Virus record (IMG/VR): IMGVR_UViG_3300034355_000927
Coordinates: 1 to 29,910 of that record
Strand: one strand, 5' to 3'
From: a virus
DNA: 29,910 nucleotides
This document shows positions 1,487 to 29,840 of this stretch, in pieces. The position numbers and the translations under genes are program-made. Positions within the stretch are counted from its first letter, which is position 1. Every line of letters begins with the position of its first letter. The notes beneath the pieces were generated by a model. That model saw nothing but the letters and a program-made list of their open reading frames with translations. It ran no database searches and was not told the DNA's origin.

Positions 1487-2044
1487 CTAAACCCGCCGAC
1501 AGAGGCGGCAGTTACGCCACCCCTCCTTCGTCCAGTAGGTGCTTTCTTCGGTGAATGGATGTCCGTTGGAGCAATGCGTTTTGGCAAGTCGTTTTGCACC
1601 GGACGCCTTGCCACCTAGTGCAAGACCTTCGTGGAAGACGTGCCGATCTGGCGTGACCACATCAGCAAACGGCATACCCTTTGCCGCGCGTGAAACGATG
1701 GTGTCTGTCTTGAGACCGTACTTCTCGGCCAACTCAATTGCGCGATACTGCTGACCTTCAATGGTCACATACACCGCGCGCCTCTGGTTGCGCTGTTGTT
1801 CTTTTCGAGTGGCCCATCGACAATTGTTGGGCTCGTAGTTCCCATCGTTGTTAATGCGGTCAAGGGTCATCCCAGGCGGACGGGGCAGCATATCAGCCTC
1901 GAAATTTTTGTAGACCAGCCATCTCTCGCAAACGGAAATCCCTCGCCCGCCATAGTCTTTGTACTGGCGATTATTGGGATTCCGACAGCGCCCAAGCATG
2001 TCGTTCCAAGCATGAAAGAGCGGCGGCGGATTTGTGTACGGCAT
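1487..2044 (-). CDS. HNH homing endonuclease-like protein
   Basis: The 185-residue product has the layout of a phage free-standing HNH endonuclease. Residues about 10-70 contain W..M..RC.N, YGGRGI.VC.RW and then LDRI.N.G.Y.P.NCRWAT..EQ..N, the core of the HNH/AP2-associated phage nuclease family. The middle (about 90-130) looks like a helix-turn-helix DNA-binding segment. The C-terminus carries CSNGHP...NCRLC, a second zinc-ribbon-like motif. The ATG at 2044 is preferred over the TTG at 2047 because GGAG lies 7 nt upstream. It runs against the surrounding late genes and its start lies 65 nt from the start of the tail-fibre-like gene, a typical placement for a mobile nuclease gene. Role: nicking or cutting DNA to promote its own spread, or DNA processing; family known, function here inferred. 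Confidence 0.85.
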   Translation of the reverse strand: MPYTNPPPLFHAWNDMLGRCRNPNNRQYKDYGGRGISVCERWLVYKNFEADMLPRPPGMTLDRINNDGNYEPNNCRWATRKEQQRNQRRAVYVTIEGQQYRAIELAEKYGLKTDTIVSRAAKGMPFADVVTPDRHVFHEGLALGGKASGAKRLAKTHCSNGHPFTEESTYWTKEGWRNCRLCRRV

Positions 2045-2108
2045 CAACAGCTCCGAGGCTTTCGCACACTATAGCGGAATGCACGGTAATCGCAATGGAG
2101 TACTTCCT

Positions 2109-3397: not shown

Positions 3398-3410
3398 GGT
3401 GGATCGTCAG

Positions 3411-4103
3411 ATGAACATTGAATCCGAGATCGAAGCGATTATGGGCGATGCCGGTTGGGCAACGTCAGTGTCCCGTCATGGCGAGCCACTTCCCTTTGCG
3501 CGCCTTGAGGGAGCGTACTGGATCGTCAATGGCAGGCCGAACGGCGTCGATGATCATGTCGGGGTTGCTGGACCCGGCGCGGAATATCACGATCCGGTTG
3601 CGCTGGCCTATGCGCTTGTCGATCGCGCCAAGAGCCTCCAGCGTGCGCAGGCGGCGCTTGTTGCAACTGCGGCGCTTTCCGTCGTTGCGCCTGTCGTCGT
3701 CGAGCCCGTTATCGTGGAGCCTGTCGAAGCGATTGCAGAGCCCGTCCCCACGGTTGACCTCGCAGCCGAGAACGAAGCCCTGCGTCGGCGCATTGCAGAA
3801 CTTGAGGCAATGGAAGCCCCGCTGCTTCCCGCCCCTGATGCGCTGATGTCGGACTATGGGCCTGTCGGTGAGGGCTATGATGACGTAACCGGCGACATGC
3901 TTCTCGATGCTTTCGAGCAGGACGAGGCGGAAGCCGTGGCGGTCATCCAGGTTCTGTCAGCGACACGCCAGCGTCACTTGAGTGAGCAACTGAACGTCGA
4001 GAAGGCGCGGCTGCGTCGAGAACACATGCTGACGGATCAGGCCAATCCGCGTGAGGCATCGATCGACCGTCTGCTTGGGCTGCTGACGCGACGCGGTGAT
4101 TGA
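3411..4103 (+). CDS. Hypothetical acidic protein with VEP repeats and coiled coil
   Basis: The ATG at 3411 is preferred, with a GAGGTGG Shine-Dalgarno 8 nt upstream (3396-3402); an in-frame GTG at 3399 would sit inside that site. The 230-residue product has an N-terminal globular part with a YWIVNGRPNGVDDH segment, a central Ala/Val/Pro region with short repeats (VEPVIVEPVEAIAEPV), a short coiled coil (AAENEALRRRIAELEAME) and an acidic helical C-terminus. No transmembrane segment is clear. It stands first in the row of genes leading to the membrane protein, Hsp70 and endolysin. The family is not recognised; a virion-associated or lysis-timing role would be a guess. Confidence 0.65.
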   Translation: MNIESEIEAIMGDAGWATSVSRHGEPLPFARLEGAYWIVNGRPNGVDDHVGVAGPGAEYHDPVALAYALVDRAKSLQRAQAALVATAALSVVAPVVVEPVIVEPVEAIAEPVPTVDLAAENEALRRRIAELEAMEAPLLPAPDALMSDYGPVGEGYDDVTGDMLLDAFEQDEAEAVAVIQVLSATRQRHLSEQLNVEKARLRREHMLTDQANPREASIDRLLGLLTRRGD

Positions 4104-4126: not shown

Positions 4127-4555
4127 ATGACCGAGATACTTCACCGCGAGATCGCAGAGATCGAGCGGCAGCGCGATGCGTTTGCGCGCCTTGATCGCAT
4201 TGGCAACGCCGAGCGCGATCTGGCGGTCTTGAGAACGCGGTTCGAGGCGGCGTTCGACACGTTCCTCAAAGAGCTTGAGCGATCGGTTTCGGGCGAAGAC
4301 CTGAAAGAGTTGAAGCGTGAATGGGAGATGGCATTGCGTGACGCAATGAACGGCGTTTCTGACTTGGTGAAAACGGCAAACGATGCGCAGTCAGCGGCCA
4401 TAATCAGCCGTGTCGAGATGATGCTTCTGCATCAGCACGAGCGCGCTGCGGAGGAAAGCAAGCGCACACGGCAGGAGTTCATCCGCTACGTGGTCGGCTT
4501 CGCGCTGACCATCCTGAGCGCGCTGCTGATCTTCTGGATCACAGAACGCGCTTAG
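4127..4555 (+). CDS. Coiled-coil protein with C-terminal membrane anchor
   Basis: A 142-residue, highly charged helical protein. Residues 1-115 are almost entirely heptad-like Glu/Arg/Leu/Ala sequence (REIAEIERQRDAFARL and later LHQHERAAEESKR), predicting a long coiled coil. Residues about 120-138 (VVGFALTILSALLIFWI) form one membrane helix followed by a very short TERA end, giving a tail-anchored topology with the coiled coil probably in the cytoplasm. It lies directly upstream of the polytopic membrane protein and could be its partner. It resembles spanin or holin-regulator architecture only in outline; the family is not recognised. Confidence 0.7.
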   Translation: MTEILHREIAEIERQRDAFARLDRIGNAERDLAVLRTRFEAAFDTFLKELERSVSGEDLKELKREWEMALRDAMNGVSDLVKTANDAQSAAIISRVEMMLLHQHERAAEESKRTRQEFIRYVVGFALTILSALLIFWITERA

Positions 4556-4574: not shown

Positions 4575-5819
4575 ATGGGCAAGTTTCTGGACACTTTCCT
4601 CGAATTTAAGAACGAGGCAGACGCGACCCGCAAGGGCGCGTTGCTGGCCGTCATCATCATCACGTTTGGCCTCGCCTCTCTGAGTGTCACTGGCGTCGTC
4701 GCAACTGCCCACTGGTCGTGGCTTTCTGCGCTGCCAATCATCGCGCTGGTTTTCGCGGTCCTCGGCGCTGAACTGCTCGCGACCGTGGCGTTCATCAGGA
4801 TGCTCACGGCATCCACAATGTGGCGCAAAGTGGCGGGCTCTTTCATCTTTCTCGGCTTGGCCGCGATCGGCGTACACAATGCTGAGAATGGGGCGAAGGT
4901 CGTCTGGCCAGAACGGTTCGCTGTCTCATCCAGCAGGCTTGCAGCAGAGGCTGAGCTTGCCGGCGAGGAAGCGGCAACACTGGCGACGGCGCAGGAAGCA
5001 GCCATCGGCGGGACCGGCGCAGAGCTTGAGCGTGTCAGGACGCAGATTGCAGAGCTTCGCACCGAACAGACCGTCATGGCGAGCATGTCCCCCGAGGGCA
5101 TCAGCAAGGCTCAAAGCCTCCTGCTTGCCCAAGGGCTATACTTCGGCAGCGTGGACGGCATCCGGCAGGACAAAACGGAAAGCGCCATGCGTGCGCGGGG
5201 CGAAGCTATCCAAGGCGAACTGGCAACGCTCAGGGCGCGTGAGGATGGCCTCATGGCGGGGCAGGCGAGCCCCGTACAGCAGGCCAACACCGACAAGCGG
5301 CTCCTACAGATCGAGAACGCTGATAAGGCTACTGCGGCGTGGTGGGCGTGGCTGTGGCTGATCATTATGCTGTGCGTTCTGGAAAGCGCTCGCTCGCTGT
5401 CCCTGTGGGCGCTCATCACCGACATCAGCTCAACGGATGCCAAGCGCGACCGGGAGTGGACCGACGAGCTTGCAGCACTGCGACACCAGCAGGAGCGGGC
5501 GCGGATCATTGCGGAGACGAACGCTGCGGTTGCAGCCTACTCAGCCCCGCCTGAGCCTGTAGCTGCCCCGCCTGTAGCGGTTGAGCCTCCCCCGGCCATC
5601 GAACTAGCCCCAGAGCCAGAACCCGCACCAGTGGTCACGCCAGAGCCTGAGCCGATCGTTCTGGTCGAGCCGGTTGAGATGACGGAGCAGGAGCGCCGCT
5701 CACGTCTGGGCGGGCTTGCGGCTCAACATCAGCGCCGGGCCGACAAGACCGAGCGCCTGCTTGTCATCGGGCCGACTTCGACAATTGACACACCCATCAT
5801 GCAGGTGGCCGCAGAATGA
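4575..5819 (+). CDS. Polytopic membrane protein with peptidoglycan-binding-like motif
   Basis: This 414-residue protein has predicted membrane helices at about 21-43, 50-76 and 86-102, a helical Ala/Glu-rich stretch (120-250), a fourth helix at about 255-278 and a Pro/Glu-rich tail (315-372, PEPEPAP-type repeats). Residues 177-216 contain LLAQGLYFGSVDGI...KTESAM, resembling a peptidoglycan-binding type 1 repeat and matching the motif in the first gene of the window. If the N-terminus is cytoplasmic, three helices place residues 103-254, with this motif, in the periplasm and the Pro-rich tail in the cytoplasm (inference). Its stop overlaps the Hsp70 start by 4 nt (ATGA), so the two are co-translated. 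It may be an envelope-sensing or anchoring partner of the lysis machinery. Confidence 0.7.
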   Translation: MGKFLDTFLEFKNEADATRKGALLAVIIITFGLASLSVTGVVATAHWSWLSALPIIALVFAVLGAELLATVAFIRMLTASTMWRKVAGSFIFLGLAAIGVHNAENGAKVVWPERFAVSSSRLAAEAELAGEEAATLATAQEAAIGGTGAELERVRTQIAELRTEQTVMASMSPEGISKAQSLLLAQGLYFGSVDGIRQDKTESAMRARGEAIQGELATLRAREDGLMAGQASPVQQANTDKRLLQIENADKATAAWWAWLWLIIMLCVLESARSLSLWALITDISSTDAKRDREWTDELAALRHQQERARIIAETNAAVAAYSAPPEPVAAPPVAVEPPPAIELAPEPEPAPVVTPEPEPIVLVEPVEMTEQERRSRLGGLAAQHQRRADKTERLLVIGPTSTIDTPIMQVAAE

Positions 5820-7339
5820 AACTCTCTCGCGTGGTCGGAATCGACTTAGGTAGCTCGAACAGCAGCATCGCCTGGTACAACGGGCGCGTGCCAGAAGTCA
5901 TCTCCGTCGATGGCTCGCCGCTCATGCCTTCGGTCGTCACTATCGTCCCCGCTGACGCCGTAGGGCCGGGCGAGAGCCAAATCTTTGTCGGCCTTGACGG
6001 CATCGAAAGCGGCAAGCGTTTCCCCGATTTCTGCTTCAGGCTGGCAAAGCGGAAGCTGGGTGAAATGTGGCACCCGGACGAAGATCAGGGCTACCAGACG
6101 GTAGGCGCTCCCGATGGCACGCTGCACTATCAAGGACCGGACAATCACACCTACAGCCCCGTCGAAATCTGCTCGATGCTCATTGCCAAGCTGCTCGATG
6201 CGGCGACGGCAAAGTGGAAGGGCGAGAAGCCGGATGCGGCGGTGATCTGCGTCCCGGCCACGTTCTCTCCAAGCCAGCGCAAGGCGGTTGAGGAAGCAGG
6301 CCGGATGGCGGGCCTTGCCTATGTCGAGCTGATGGACGAGCCGACCGCGGCAGCGCTCGCATATGGCTACGATTTCAAAAAAGTTCGTCGCATTGCCGTC
6401 CTCGATGTGGGAGGAGGCACAACTGACGTCTCCATAATTCAGACAGGCTCTGGCCTCGTCACTGTGCTTGGCACAGGCGGGTCCAGTATCACGGGCGGGA
6501 GCGATGTGGACGCCATCCTTGGCAGGTACATCGTCAACAAGTGGGCGACGGATCACGAGGGAACGGATCTTGCCGTTGATGACACGGCGATGAGCCTTGT
6601 TCTTCAGGAAGCGGAGGACGTGAAAAAGCGCCTCTCGCGCAAGGTCAAGTCGGAGTTCCGCATCAAGGATTTCGACCGAAGCCCAGGCGGGACGGACCTC
6701 CACATGGACTACATTGTCGATCGTCCGTTGCTGGAACATCTCTCGCAGGACTTGCTTAAGCGGATGCGCGCTGCCTGCCTCGTCGCCATCGCAGAGGCTA
6801 CGCGGAAGGACGCCAATTTCTCAGCTAGGCGTGACTTGAATGACGTGGTCCTCGTCGGTGGTGGATCGAGAATGCCGGCCGTGCAAGCGATGGCGCGCGA
6901 TGTGTTCGGGCAGGAAGCCAAGACCGACATCGACTGCGAGATTGCCGTGGCGCTTGGCGCTGCGATCCGTGCCGCTGTGCTTGAGGGCCGGAAGTCCGAT
7001 CTGACGGTACAGGACATCCTTGCCTACAACGTCGCCATCGAGGTTTACGACAAGGTCGAGGGCGTGGCGTCCGTCATCATCCCCCGTGGCACGCCATATC
7101 CGAGTGAGAAGGAAGCGGCGTTCTTCCTCACCAACCGCGAGCCGGGTCAGGACGTCATGCCTGTACGCATCGTGGCAGGCGACCATGACCGCGCCGCTTC
7201 CTGTGAGCTGCTTCACAGCATCAACGTGCCGCTTGAGCCAAGCGAACCGCGCGCAGCGCGTGTGCCGTTCACGGTCGGCCTCAACAGCCGCGGCGAGGCG
7301 TATGGTCGTGTCGGCGAAATCGAGTGGGGCTCAACGTGA
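5816..7339 (+). CDS. Phage-encoded Hsp70 (DnaK-like) ATPase lacking the lid
   Basis: A 507-residue Hsp70 family protein. The nucleotide-binding domain spans about 1-395: phosphate-1 loop GIDLGSSNSSIAW (8-20), a Lys in FRLAKRKLG near 78 matching the catalytic Lys of DnaK, VPATFSPSQRKAV (146-158), DEPTAAALAYG (174-184), phosphate-2 LDVGGGTTD (196-204) and adenosine motif VLVGGGSRMPAV (345-356). A beta substrate-binding domain follows (about 400-500; AYNVAIEV, IIPRGTPYP). The protein ends where the alpha-helical lid of DnaK (about 638 residues) would begin, and no DnaJ or GrpE gene is visible. Key nucleotide residues are intact, so ATPase activity is likely. It overlaps both its upstream membrane-protein gene and the downstream endolysin by 4 nt, placing it inside the lysis operon. 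Client and role are unknown. Confidence 0.93.
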   Translation: MKLSRVVGIDLGSSNSSIAWYNGRVPEVISVDGSPLMPSVVTIVPADAVGPGESQIFVGLDGIESGKRFPDFCFRLAKRKLGEMWHPDEDQGYQTVGAPDGTLHYQGPDNHTYSPVEICSMLIAKLLDAATAKWKGEKPDAAVICVPATFSPSQRKAVEEAGRMAGLAYVELMDEPTAAALAYGYDFKKVRRIAVLDVGGGTTDVSIIQTGSGLVTVLGTGGSSITGGSDVDAILGRYIVNKWATDHEGTDLAVDDTAMSLVLQEAEDVKKRLSRKVKSEFRIKDFDRSPGGTDLHMDYIVDRPLLEHLSQDLLKRMRAACLVAIAEATRKDANFSARRDLNDVVLVGGGSRMPAVQAMARDVFGQEAKTDIDCEIAVALGAAIRAAVLEGRKSDLTVQDILAYNVAIEVYDKVEGVASVIIPRGTPYPSEKEAAFFLTNREPGQDVMPVRIVAGDHDRAASCELLHSINVPLEPSEPRAARVPFTVGLNSRGEAYGRVGEIEWGST

Positions 7340-8451
7340 ACGATCATCACAGGCTGAACGAGTTCGGCCTAGAACTTCTCACCGAGTACGAGCGGGGGCC
7401 GCAGGACGGTAGCGTTCCGTTGACGCCGGGCGGCGCGGCAATGGAGCCGTACATCTGCCCTGGCGATATGTTGACCATTGGCTATGGTTGCACGAAGTTT
7501 TTCGGCGGCATGGAGGTTCTGCCAACCGACAGGCTCAGCGACGAGGCAAGCGCGCGGGCGCTTCTGGCGGATCAGCTCATTGAGTATGAAGCCGCGGTCA
7601 AGCGTTTAGTGACGGTCCCGCTCAACTCAAACCAGTTCTCAGCGCTCGTCTGCTTCGCCTTTAACTGCGGGATCAACGCCCTCGGCGGTTCAACCCTTCT
7701 CAAGCACGTCAACGCCAATCGCTTCGATGACGCAGCAGACCAGTTTGGAGCGTGGCTCTACTCAACAAGCGGCAAGCATAAGCAAGCGCTGCGGGGCCTG
7801 CTGAGACGCCGCTACAGTGAATCCTGCTTGTGGATGGGCTATTCATGGACCGTCGCCTGCGCTGACGACGCGATCGGCCTCGTGCGTGAACGCCCACCCG
7901 GCAACGTCGGCACAGACCGGGTTCTGAGCAAGACTGCATTCAAGGACGTGCTCGCCGTGGCGCAACGCTACCCGCTCCCCGATGAGCGGCCCGAACTCGT
8001 TCTAACAAAAGCTGAGCCTGCGGTCGTGCCGATCGCAAGCAAGGCGGTCCAGCCGGCGCCGCTGCCCGGCCCAGCGTCGGCTGGCACTGCAATCAAGCCT
8101 TCTGTCGGTGGTTCCTCAGAAGCGGTGTCGGTCAAGCCAACGGTCCCAGCTCCCCAGCCAGTACCTTTGGCTCGACCGGCGCCTGCTTCTGTGGAAGCCG
8201 TCAAGCCGCCCCCGCTTCCGAAGGATGCAGCGCCCGCCGATCTGACCAACCCAAAGGACATGCTTCTCAGCAGGCGCGCATGGGGCCTTGCGGTTACGGC
8301 AGTCGGCACAACTCAATTCGTCCCGCGTGGCGCTTCCGAGTGGCTGAACAACGAGGGCAATCGAGAACTGCTCTCGTGGCTCATCGTCGTTATCGTTGGC
8401 GTGCTTCTCTACCAGTACGGGAAATACAAGGCCAAGAGGCCACTGAAATGA
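7336..8451 (+). CDS. Endolysin, GH24 lysozyme with C-terminal membrane anchor
   Basis: The GTG at 7336 is preferred because it overlaps the Hsp70 stop (GTGA) and has a GAGTGGGG sequence just upstream; GTG 7324 would add four residues. The N-terminal ~165 residues are a glycoside hydrolase 24 lysozyme: Glu in LLTEYERG, then PYICPGDMLTIGYG with Cys and Thr in the spacing of the E-D/C-T triad, and LNSNQFSALVCFAFNCG with R/K..ALRGLLRRR later, typical of this fold. It should cut the glycan backbone of peptidoglycan. A Pro/Ala-rich linker (about 220-300) leads to a C-terminal region with one clear membrane helix (LLSWLIVVIVGVLLYQYG) and a basic tail. The anchor suggests the enzyme is membrane-tethered before release. 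About 371 residues, longer than T4-type enzymes because of linker and anchor. Confidence 0.92.
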   Translation: MNDHHRLNEFGLELLTEYERGPQDGSVPLTPGGAAMEPYICPGDMLTIGYGCTKFFGGMEVLPTDRLSDEASARALLADQLIEYEAAVKRLVTVPLNSNQFSALVCFAFNCGINALGGSTLLKHVNANRFDDAADQFGAWLYSTSGKHKQALRGLLRRRYSESCLWMGYSWTVACADDAIGLVRERPPGNVGTDRVLSKTAFKDVLAVAQRYPLPDERPELVLTKAEPAVVPIASKAVQPAPLPGPASAGTAIKPSVGGSSEAVSVKPTVPAPQPVPLARPAPASVEAVKPPPLPKDAAPADLTNPKDMLLSRRAWGLAVTAVGTTQFVPRGASEWLNNEGNRELLSWLIVVIVGVLLYQYGKYKAKRPLK

Positions 8452-8756
8452 ACCTCGCAGCGATCGGCACTGGTATCTTCGGGTTCCTCAAGCGCATCCC
8501 CGATTGGGTGCTCTGGGCATTGGGCGTGATCATCTTCCTGAAGTTCGTGGACATGCGAGCGGAGCATCGCGGGCGCAAGGAAGAGGGCGCCAAGCGCGAC
8601 AAGGAAGCCGCCGAAGTCGAGCGTGAAGTTGTCACCAACATTCAGGAGAATACCGATGCAGTCATTGCTGAGGCTGACGCTGTGCGCGGCCATACCTCTG
8701 CTGGCGTCCTGCCAGACGGAAGCGCGACCCTCGAAAAGCATCATTATCGCGACTGA
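8448..8756 (+). CDS. Rz-like i-spanin (inner-membrane spanin subunit)
   Basis: The 102-residue product starts at ATG 8448, overlapping the endolysin stop by 4 nt. Residues about 17-34 (PDWVLWALGVIIFLKFVD) form one N-terminal membrane helix, followed by a charged coiled-coil-like periplasmic region (EEGAKRDKEAAEVEREVV). This size, N-in/C-out topology and position directly after the endolysin match i-spanins of two-component systems, which disrupt the outer membrane after peptidoglycan is cut. The second half overlaps a lipoprotein gene in another frame, the Rz/Rz1 arrangement. Sequence similarity to lambda Rz is not obvious; the call rests on architecture and context. Confidence 0.78.
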   Translation: MNLAAIGTGIFGFLKRIPDWVLWALGVIIFLKFVDMRAEHRGRKEEGAKRDKEAAEVEREVVTNIQENTDAVIAEADAVRGHTSAGVLPDGSATLEKHHYRD

Positions 8757-8931
8757 CCGGGCTGTGTGGAAGGAGGCGCTTTGCTCAACCGGCAAGGCGA
8801 TCCTGATCTCGCGCTCCGACATTCTGACGCTGGAAACAGCAGAGCAGATTGGCGACCACAATAACGCGCTCTGGTGCGCTTGTGACCATCTGCGCCCGAC
8901 AACTTTTGACGCTGGCATCTGCCGCGTCTGA
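8656..8931 (+). CDS. Rz1-like o-spanin lipoprotein
   Basis: The ATG at 8656 is chosen because AGGAG (8644-8648) lies 7 nt upstream and the resulting protein opens with a signal sequence MQSLLRLTLCAAIPLLASC: basic n-region, hydrophobic core and lipobox L-A-S-C. The 91-residue product would be a lipoprotein sorted to the outer membrane. It overlaps the i-spanin gene by 101 nt in a different frame and continues past its end. At 91 residues with four or more extra Cys (LCST, WCAC, GICR) it is larger and more Cys-rich than lambda Rz1. Together with 8448-8756 it would form the spanin complex linking inner and outer membranes. Confidence 0.78.
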   Translation: MQSLLRLTLCAAIPLLASCQTEARPSKSIIIATDRAVWKEALCSTGKAILISRSDILTLETAEQIGDHNNALWCACDHLRPTTFDAGICRV

Positions 8932-8980
8932 CCCGCTCAACCCGCTGCCCATTCTGCGCAGCTTTTAGGAGGACGTGCAT

Positions 8981-9220
8981 ATGGGCTTCAAGATTGTTCG
9001 TGAAGACGGGAAGACTGATTGGGCTTCGATCAGGGCCGTGTTCTACTGCGCGCTTGCGACGTGGATTTTGGTTGTTCGGCTGATCGGCGTCGATCCGTTC
9101 GATGACCTGTTCTCGGGAGCCATCACGCTCTCGACCTGGATCGACCTCGTGTGTGTCGTCGGCGGCTATTTGTTCATCTGGCACATCATGTACCCGAACC
9201 GTCCCAAGGTCAGCCTGTAA
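8981..9220 (+). CDS. Small membrane protein, holin candidate
   Basis: The ATG at 8981 has a very strong AGGAGGA Shine-Dalgarno (8967-8973) 7 nt upstream; an in-frame GTG at 8975 is less likely. The 79-residue protein has two predicted membrane helices, about residues 19-37 (IRAVFYCALATWILVVRLI) and 53-72 (TWIDLVCVVGGYLFIWHIM), with a charged N-terminus and a short basic C-terminus. Size, two-helix hairpin and placement just after the spanins make it a reasonable holin or pinholin candidate, though no holin family is recognised. The strong ribosome-binding site suggests high expression. Confidence 0.72.
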   Translation: MGFKIVREDGKTDWASIRAVFYCALATWILVVRLIGVDPFDDLFSGAITLSTWIDLVCVVGGYLFIWHIMYPNRPKVSL

Positions 9221-28099: not shown

Positions 28100-28387
28100 A
28101 TGGCAAAGGGCAAGAAGACGGGTGGACGTGTCGCTGGCACGCATAACAAGGCCACACGCGACATCAAGGAGGCGGCACGGGCTCACGGGCCAGCCGCACT
28201 GAAAACGCTCTCCAGCCTCATGCTGAACGCAGCAAGCGAGACGGCCAGAATTGCCGCCGCCAAGGAAATCCTTGATCGCGCATACGGGAAGGCCACGCAG
28301 CCGCTTGGCGAAGATCCGACAATGCCCTTTGTAAGCAAGGAGCAGAGGGATGCCGCTGTCCGAGCCGCCTACTCGGCGGATACCTGA
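28100..28387 (+). CDS. terS: Terminase small subunit-like protein
   Basis: The 95-residue product opens MAKGKKTGGRVAGTHNKATRDIKEAARAHGPAALKTL, a basic Gly/Lys-rich start with a helix-turn-helix-like segment, followed by AARIAAAKEILDRAYGKATQPL. The GGR.aGT.NK...(A)..HG.A....L and A..A.KEILDR.yGK.tQ layout is typical of short terminase-associated proteins in alphaproteobacterial phages. It would recognise the packaging start and cooperate with the large subunit, whose gene overlaps it by 38 nt. Assignment rests on context and layout. Confidence 0.7.
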   Translation: MAKGKKTGGRVAGTHNKATRDIKEAARAHGPAALKTLSSLMLNAASETARIAAAKEILDRAYGKATQPLGEDPTMPFVSKEQRDAAVRAAYSADT

Positions 28388-29840
28388 GCCATCAGCGGAA
28401 GACTATGCGTTCACGCGCCTGCTGTCTTACGCGGCCTACCAATGGCCGAACTATGCAGACGCGCCGCACCACAGGCTGATTGCCCGCAAGCTTGAGGCAG
28501 TCGAACGGGGTGAAATCCGCCGCCTGATGATCTCGATGCCGCCACGCCACGGCAAGTCCATGCTGGCGAGCGAGTTCTTCCCAGCATGGTACATAGGGCG
28601 AAACCCTAACCACTACGTCATCGCAGCTACCTATGCGCAGGAACTGGCCGACGACTTCGGACGCAAGGTCAGGAACCAGATTGCCGATCCGGCTTACAAG
28701 GCGATCTTCCCTGGCGTTGCGCTCAAGGATGATTCAACCAGCGCCAAGCGCTTTCACATCTCGGCGCCGCTCGATGCCTTCGCAACGGGGCAAGACGGGG
28801 CTTACTTCGCTGTAGGTGTCGGCGGTCCACTCACAGGCCGTGGCGCTCACCTGCTTCTGATCGATGATCCGGTGAAGAACCGGGAGGACGCAGACAGCGA
28901 GACAATCCGCAAGAAGACGCGGGAATGGTACACATCGACGGCCTACACCCGCCTGATGAAAGACGGGCGCGTGGTGGTCATCCAGACGCGCTGGCATGAG
29001 GACGACCTGAGCGGTTGGCTATTGGCGGAACACCAGCATGAAGGCTGGGATGTCCTGTCGCTGCCGGCCATCAATGATCAGGGCAATGCGCTCTGGCCGG
29101 AAATGTACCCGGTCGATCGCCTGAACGAGATCAAGCTTGCGGTCGGTCCTAGGGACTGGTCAGCGCTGTATCAGCAACGACCTTCGCCCGAGGAAGGCGA
29201 CTATTTCAAAGCCGAATGGCTTCGGACGGTTCCAGAGCTTCCGCCCCGCGCCACGCTGAAAGTCTACGGCGGATCTGATTACGCGGTCACGGCAAACGGC
29301 GGTGACTACACGGTCCACATCGTTGTCGGCATCGACCCTGAGAGCCGCATCTACCTGCTGGACCTATGGCGAGGGCAGGCTGCATCGGACACATGGGTCG
29401 AGGCATTCTGCGACCTTGTGAAGAAGTGGAAGCCGATAGGCTGGGCTGAAGAGACGGGCCAGATCAAGGCTGGTGTTGGTCCCTTCCTGATGCGGCGGAT
29501 GCTGGAGCGTCAGGCTTACGTCTACCGTGAGACATTCCCGACCCGAGGCGACAAGGCGGTCAGGGCGCAATCCATTCGTGGCCGCATGGCGATGAAGGGC
29601 CTCTACATGGCCGCTGATGCGCCTTGGCGTGCTGACCTGATGAGCGAGCTTCTGAGCTTCCCTGTAGGTGTCCACGACGACCAGGCCGATGCGCTTGGCC
29701 TTGTGGGACAGCTCCTCGACAAGATGGAAGCTGGCTCACCGCTGGTTCCGAATACGCCCAAGCCGATTGGCAAAACGGGCCAAGTCTACCTCCCCGGCGC
29801 TCCTGAGCCTGTGCGCGGAAACAAGAAAGACTGGACCTGA
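28350..29840 (+). CDS. terL: Phage terminase large subunit
   Basis: The 496-residue protein starts at ATG 28350 with AGGAG (28338-28342) 7 nt upstream and overlaps the small subunit by 38 nt. ATPase motifs: Walker A PPRHGKS (64-70), Walker B LLLIDDP (168-174) and TRWHEDD (213-219). The RNase H-like nuclease domain begins near GGSDYA (307-312) with a metal-binding Asp310 and ends with HDDQADAL near 440-450, giving the expected acidic residues. It drives ATP-dependent packaging of DNA into the procapsid and cuts at the genome end. Length is normal for the family and no frameshift is seen. The stop overlaps the next start. Confidence 0.95.
   Translation: MPLSEPPTRRIPEPSAEDYAFTRLLSYAAYQWPNYADAPHHRLIARKLEAVERGEIRRLMISMPPRHGKSMLASEFFPAWYIGRNPNHYVIAATYAQELADDFGRKVRNQIADPAYKAIFPGVALKDDSTSAKRFHISAPLDAFATGQDGAYFAVGVGGPLTGRGAHLLLIDDPVKNREDADSETIRKKTREWYTSTAYTRLMKDGRVVVIQTRWHEDDLSGWLLAEHQHEGWDVLSLPAINDQGNALWPEMYPVDRLNEIKLAVGPRDWSALYQQRPSPEEGDYFKAEWLRTVPELPPRATLKVYGGSDYAVTANGGDYTVHIVVGIDPESRIYLLDLWRGQAASDTWVEAFCDLVKKWKPIGWAEETGQIKAGVGPFLMRRMLERQAYVYRETFPTRGDKAVRAQSIRGRMAMKGLYMAADAPWRADLMSELLSFPVGVHDDQADALGLVGQLLDKMEAGSPLVPNTPKPIGKTGQVYLPGAPEPVRGNKKDWT

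Follow-up and report, generated by a model that had tools for sequence, protein, structure and literature searches.

What might an Hsp70 chaperone do inside the lysis operon of a phage? The question is raised by the open reading frame at 5816-7339 of the window (the whole 29,910-nt stretch of DNA analysed here), a virus record that carries genes for an integrase, an Erf-like annealing protein, tail fibres and a terminase and is therefore a fragment of a temperate tailed phage. The terminase (28350-29840) is closest to those of freshwater cyanophages (Pseudanabaena phage Pam1, 50%). The features of the cassette are as follows, with the evidence for each in brackets.

4127-4555 (+): g4127, 142 aa, with one C-terminal TM helix at residues 121-139 (hydropathy).
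4575-5819 (+): memP, a membrane protein of 414 aa (hydropathy, a low-confidence AF2 model, alignment).
5529-5669 (+): P/E-rich linker of memP, residues 319-365, left seam of an exchanged block (dN/dS; break in homology between phages).
5670-5816 (+): memP tail, residues 366-414, proposed Hsp70 docking peptide (class match with Hsp70; absent where Hsp70 is absent).
5816-7339 (+): lidless Hsp70, 507 aa, ATG start (Pfam, best solved relative, AF2 model, residue alignment).
About 5816-6985: nucleotide-binding domain (NBD) of the Hsp70, followed by the interdomain linker with the conserved D400 and by the beta substrate-binding domain (SBD) up to the stop.
7336-8451 (+): GH24 endolysin, 371 aa (Pfam Phage_lysozyme, 3.3e-32; PHROG endolysin; TM segment at residues 344-362).
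8035-8260 (+): P/A-rich linker of the lysin, right seam of the exchanged block (homology between the window and locus L027 resumes at 8035).
8448-8756 (+): candidate i-spanin, 102 aa, with one N-terminal TM segment (position, TM segment and overlap with the o-spanin gene; no family match).
8656-8931 (+): o-spanin-like lipoprotein, 91 aa, with a LASC lipobox (PHROG Rz-like spanin, 2e-8).
8975-9220 (+): holin candidate, a small protein with two hydrophobic segments (hydropathy alone).

Both junctions of the Hsp70 gene are 4-nt overlaps, as a sequence-only reading of this DNA had claimed. The memP stop and the Hsp70 start share ATGA (5816-5819) and the Hsp70 stop and the lysin start share GTGA (7336-7339), the lysin beginning at GTG 7336 instead of at the longer mechanical ORF start at 7324. 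The lysin is laid out as a catalytic domain (residues 33-162), a P/A-rich linker and a C-terminal TM segment, and most relatives also have the conserved g4127 gene ahead of memP. Three window proteins, encoded at 3399-4103, 4575-5819 and 7336-8451, have conserved parts joined by variable P/E- or P/A-rich linkers. The ORF at 120-1259 has a weak match to an endolysin PHROG (1e-4) and contains a stretch similar to a peptidoglycan-binding-like segment of memP.

A true Hsp70 is encoded at 5816-7339. The protein matches the Pfam HSP70 family over residues 6-472 (E = 2.6e-82), has bacterial DnaK as its best solved relative (6.5e-68) and gives an AF2 model (pLDDT 84, pTM 0.78) with a complete NBD and, after the interdomain linker, a beta SBD; the best superpositions on full DnaK structures reach TM-scores of 0.76-0.81. 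The equivalents of E. coli D8, K70, P143, E171, T199 and D201 are all kept in the window protein, and those of D8, K70, E171, T199 and D201 in the actin-like NBD are kept in 16 of 16 representative sequences, which agrees with the earlier claim that all DnaK nucleotide-binding motifs are present. These residues predict that the window protein is an active ATPase. The interdomain linker aspartate (D393 equivalent) is kept in Hsp70 classes A, C and D (defined below) and is N or H in class B. The chain stops after the last SBD beta strands and the alpha-helical lid is absent, again as had been read from the sequence. Because the protein ends at the same place in all relatives, the missing lid does not reflect a frameshift or an assembly error; complete copies are lidless across all four classes (486-513 aa). 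Estimates of dN/dS are about 0.13 for the NBD and 0.17 for the SBD (55 pairs).

To find relatives, memP, the o-spanin and each Hsp70 class served as queries against viral contigs. All relatives are metagenomic fragments, and since the searches used exact peptide patterns, the numbers given are minimum figures and relatives without the Hsp70 are under-represented. At least 31 contigs, the window included, carry this Hsp70. A memP-type gene lies directly upstream in all 31, and no related phage was seen with its Hsp70 far from the lysis genes, an arrangement that the sequence-only reading had named as evidence against itself. A GH24 lysin follows in 29 of the 29 contigs that reach far enough; those of L006 and L038 end inside the Hsp70 gene. 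We set four classes by the sequence identity of the Hsp70s, which to the window protein is 76-97% in class A (the window type), 36-38% in class B, 50-51% in class C and 38-41% in class D. In a tree with a limited outgroup set, the cassette Hsp70s form one clade (support 100/100) apart from DnaK, HscA and HscC and also from the DnaK proteins encoded by Lak and other huge phages. The isolated phages of INPHARED gave no memP or cassette match; the Hsp70 records examined there are DnaK-like, and some stand in records with bacterial-looking neighbours. Prophage or cellular relatives were likewise not returned by a memP scan of genome contigs, and an Hsp70 scan of genome contigs returned only an HscA-like protein and MreB, named by sequence reading, which were set aside.

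The hydropathy profile of memP has N-terminal TM helices and a further TM segment near residues 254-281, and the protein would thus have a helical part in the periplasm, containing a peptidoglycan-binding-like segment, and a cytosolic portion made of the P/E-rich linker and the conserved tail. Its AF2 model is of low confidence (pLDDT 57) and too poor for a fold search. The linker evolves fast (dN/dS about 0.55, compared with 0.09-0.17 elsewhere), and a second, acid-flanked hydrophobic motif, EPIVLVEP, lies within it. The tail, comprising the last 40-50 residues behind this linker, has a dN/dS of 0.16 and consists of a basic stretch followed by the hydrophobic peptide ERLLVIGP (5751-5774). The class of the tail is that of the Hsp70 in every locus: the tail reads ...KTERLLVIGP... 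with class A, ...KAARNRVLILADR... with class B, ...KAERLIVIPSF... with class C, and ...AYIPVPSLVAR... and kin with class D. DnaK binds heptapeptides with a hydrophobic core and a basic flank, such as NRLLLTG (PMC2717214), and the tail cores (ERLLVIGP, NRVLILAD, ERLIVIPS, AYIVVPSL) look like such peptides. By shuffling, hydrophobic clustering in the tail was no greater than its composition would give by chance (p 0.05-0.9), and we did not retain it as a measure of this likeness.

Pairwise distances were correlated across 22 loci. Distances between memP tails followed those between Hsp70 NBDs (r = 0.96) and SBDs (0.93), whereas memP bodies and their own tails were correlated at only 0.22. The lysin catalytic domain was correlated with the Hsp70 at 0.77-0.79 (0.79 for the NBD), and the two ends of the lysin with each other at 0.14. 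Tail and Hsp70 are strictly co-inherited, co-inheritance with the lysin catalytic domain is weaker but clear, and the three are exchanged as one block.

The exchanges can be seen in individual pairs of phages. The sequences of L032 and L035 agree at 94% identity, the memP body included, up to 154 nt before the memP stop; past this break the two differ in the tail, the Hsp70 and the GH24 domain alike, and their homology returns in the lysin linker. The same pattern separates the window from L027 and L022 from L003. L020 and L071 share an upstream flank (96%) and nearly identical tails, Hsp70s and lysins (93%), and their memP bodies are different, with no detectable DNA homology; used as a query, the membrane body of L071 returned only L071 itself. 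In L118, a body of the L074 type is joined to a class B tail and a class B Hsp70. L111 and L121 have kept the lysin, the spanins and a membrane body resembling that of L071 (about 21% identity), and both the memP tail and the Hsp70 are absent; no Hsp70 occurs anywhere on the 32.6-kb L111 contig, and the L121 contig covers 6.2 kb only. The existence of these two relatives indicates that the module is not essential to every such cassette, but in every case seen tail and Hsp70 are either jointly present or jointly absent. The edges of the block (tail, Hsp70 and lysin catalytic domain) fall in the two proline-rich linkers of memP and the lysin, which act as recombination seams between phages.

Class B Hsp70s always occur with one distinctive lysin domain, and class A Hsp70s occur with two lysin domain families and one tail type. 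In the GH24 alignment, the Hsp70-linked lysins have Cys where the Hsp70-free L111 and L121 have Asp, and in a second lysin family Glu takes the place of the Thr found in the others; we take both to be catalytic positions. Endolysins of an E-C-T type are known.

Because the tail travels with the Hsp70 and not with the rest of memP, and is missing where the Hsp70 is missing, it behaves as a docking peptide would, and because the lysin catalytic domain co-travels with the Hsp70, this domain is suggested as the client. We rate at about even the chance that the protein is a dedicated membrane-docked Hsp70 of the phage lysis cassette, docked on the memP tail and acting on the lysin domain. The basic stretch and short hydrophobic peptide of the cytosolic tail would form the docking site, and the Hsp70 would hold them, most likely in its lidless SBD. 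Its ATPase would then target the catalytic domain of the endolysin, a membrane-tethered protein encoded by the next gene, and keep this domain soluble, inactive or export-ready until lysis, so that the docked chaperone would hold, fold or deliver the lysin at the membrane. Docking on the tail is strongly suggested by the genetics, from which we infer a physical contact between the two; the lysin may be the client, and lysis timing or export may be affected as a result. The roles offered by the sequence-only reading thus separate: action on a lysis protein or together with the membrane protein is favoured because the Hsp70 is co-inherited with parts of both neighbours (the tail of memP, the catalytic domain of the lysin), the idea of an envelope sensor formed with memP is weakly supported by a PG_binding_1 match in 6 of 23 memP members (best E 0.032), and for aid to virion assembly we found no support.

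A possible but doubtful alternative is that the Hsp70 serves memP only, folding, inserting or gating it as a holin- or antiholin-like protein, and that the lysin domain hitch-hikes in the block. Such a role would fit the tighter association of the Hsp70 with the tail than with the lysin, the presence in class A of a single tail type alongside two families of lysin domain, and the joint absence of tail and Hsp70 from phages in which membrane body and lysin persist. It does not account for the constant pairing of class B Hsp70s with one distinctive lysin domain, nor for the position of the lysin catalytic domain inside the block edges in each exchange between classes A and B.

The main alternative to a working partnership is plain linkage, the block being flanked by two linkers prone to recombination. 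The tail, the Hsp70 and the lysin domain are direct neighbours, and exchange between such linkers would keep them together even if they never touched, so that an ordinary accessory chaperone could move with its neighbours and not work with them; both seams are low-complexity sequence, and HNH-like ORFs in the same gaps mark the region as a mobile hot spot. Nevertheless, the tail is under purifying selection next to a linker that is not comparably constrained (dN/dS as given above), it is absent in the Hsp70-free relatives and the Hsp70 never occurs without it, and a neutral passenger should be found elsewhere in these phages too, which was never the case. We therefore consider linkage by itself unlikely. 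Least probable is a virion or host-takeover role (an assembly chaperone, a structural Hsp70 like closterovirus HSP70h, or superinfection control) with the late-operon position incidental, since the tail-fibre genes upstream and the presence of closterovirus HSP70h among the viral Hsp70s in the fold search are outweighed by co-inheritance with lysin and memP parts, by the lack of any Hsp70 found with structural genes apart from lysis genes, and by the full-length DnaKs of huge phages, for which no lysis link was seen.

Matches to DnaJ (PF00226) or GrpE (PF01025) are absent from the window and 15 related contigs, which may be fragments, and the earlier statement that no J-domain or GrpE gene is nearby thus extends to 16 contigs. 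R167 of E. coli DnaK has a role in the J-domain site (PMC7289447). At the positions of the J-domain docking residues R167 and N170, 16 of 16 phage sequences have E/D/K/Y/S and D/H/E, respectively (E and D in the window), whereas HscA and HscC retain R and N. The missing partner genes and the replaced residues together point to a specialised Hsp70 that may not use canonical J-proteins, although host partners are possible. We also considered a reversed salt bridge between the domains (E. coli R167-D481) but dropped the idea, as the alignment is unstable at D481 (N or R).

Lysis timing in dsDNA phages is known to be governed by holins, SAR domains and antiholins, and a chaperone ATPase built into the lysis cassette would be a new kind of part. 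We suggest, tentatively, a new principle of lysis control: docked on a membrane protein, an Hsp70 driven by ATP and independent of J-proteins would keep hold of the endolysin and, at a set time, release it or push it out, with tail, Hsp70 and catalytic domain forming one exchangeable device that is swapped between membrane scaffolds. The matched classes of tail and Hsp70 would also offer ready-made specificity pairs for studying partner choice and release by a lidless, possibly J-independent Hsp70. Our literature search brought up no earlier account of a lysis-cassette Hsp70, although this does not prove that there is none.

The closest known logic is that of Ssz1-Zuo1 in the fungal ribosome-associated complex, in which the LP motif of Zuo1 occupies the SBD-beta of the lidless Hsp70 Ssz1 as an inbuilt pseudo-substrate (PMC7083937). 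The phage Hsp70 likewise lacks a lid; judging from co-inheritance, it may bind a hydrophobic peptide of its partner. Ssz1 does not hydrolyse ATP, however, and its partner is a ribosomal J-protein, whereas the phage Hsp70 keeps all ATPase residues and its candidate partner, a membrane protein, gives no match to a J-domain. The closest lysis role is that of mycobacteriophage Ms6 Gp1, a chaperone-like protein of the lysis cassette that binds the endolysin LysA and aids its delivery (PMC6116114). Both would be phage-encoded chaperone-like proteins of a lysis cassette, but Gp1 is not described as an Hsp70 (PMC6116114) and has no membrane docking partner. Phage Hsp70 genes are known from Lak phages, huge phages and moraphages (database search and PMC12619734); unlike the cassette Hsp70, the huge-phage DnaKs in the records examined are full length (621-656 aa) and showed no lysis link, and the Lak phage DnaK has a DnaJ-like gene alongside. 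With bacterial DnaK, HscA and HscC the phage protein shares the fold, the NBD motifs and, in classes A, C and D, the linker aspartate; it differs from them in the absent lid and, in the window, in the change of R167 and N170 to E and D.

The HNH-type homing endonuclease-like ORFs in the cassettes, recognised by sequence appearance, lie at L007:9524-10207, L017:3639-4442, L032:2945-3511 and L034:1296-2018, in the gap between Hsp70 and lysin in three phages and between memP and Hsp70 in one, and the cassette resembles a hot spot for homing. An ORF on the minus strand of the window (1487-2047), near the tail-region genes, is HNH/AP2-like by appearance alone and is of the same general type.
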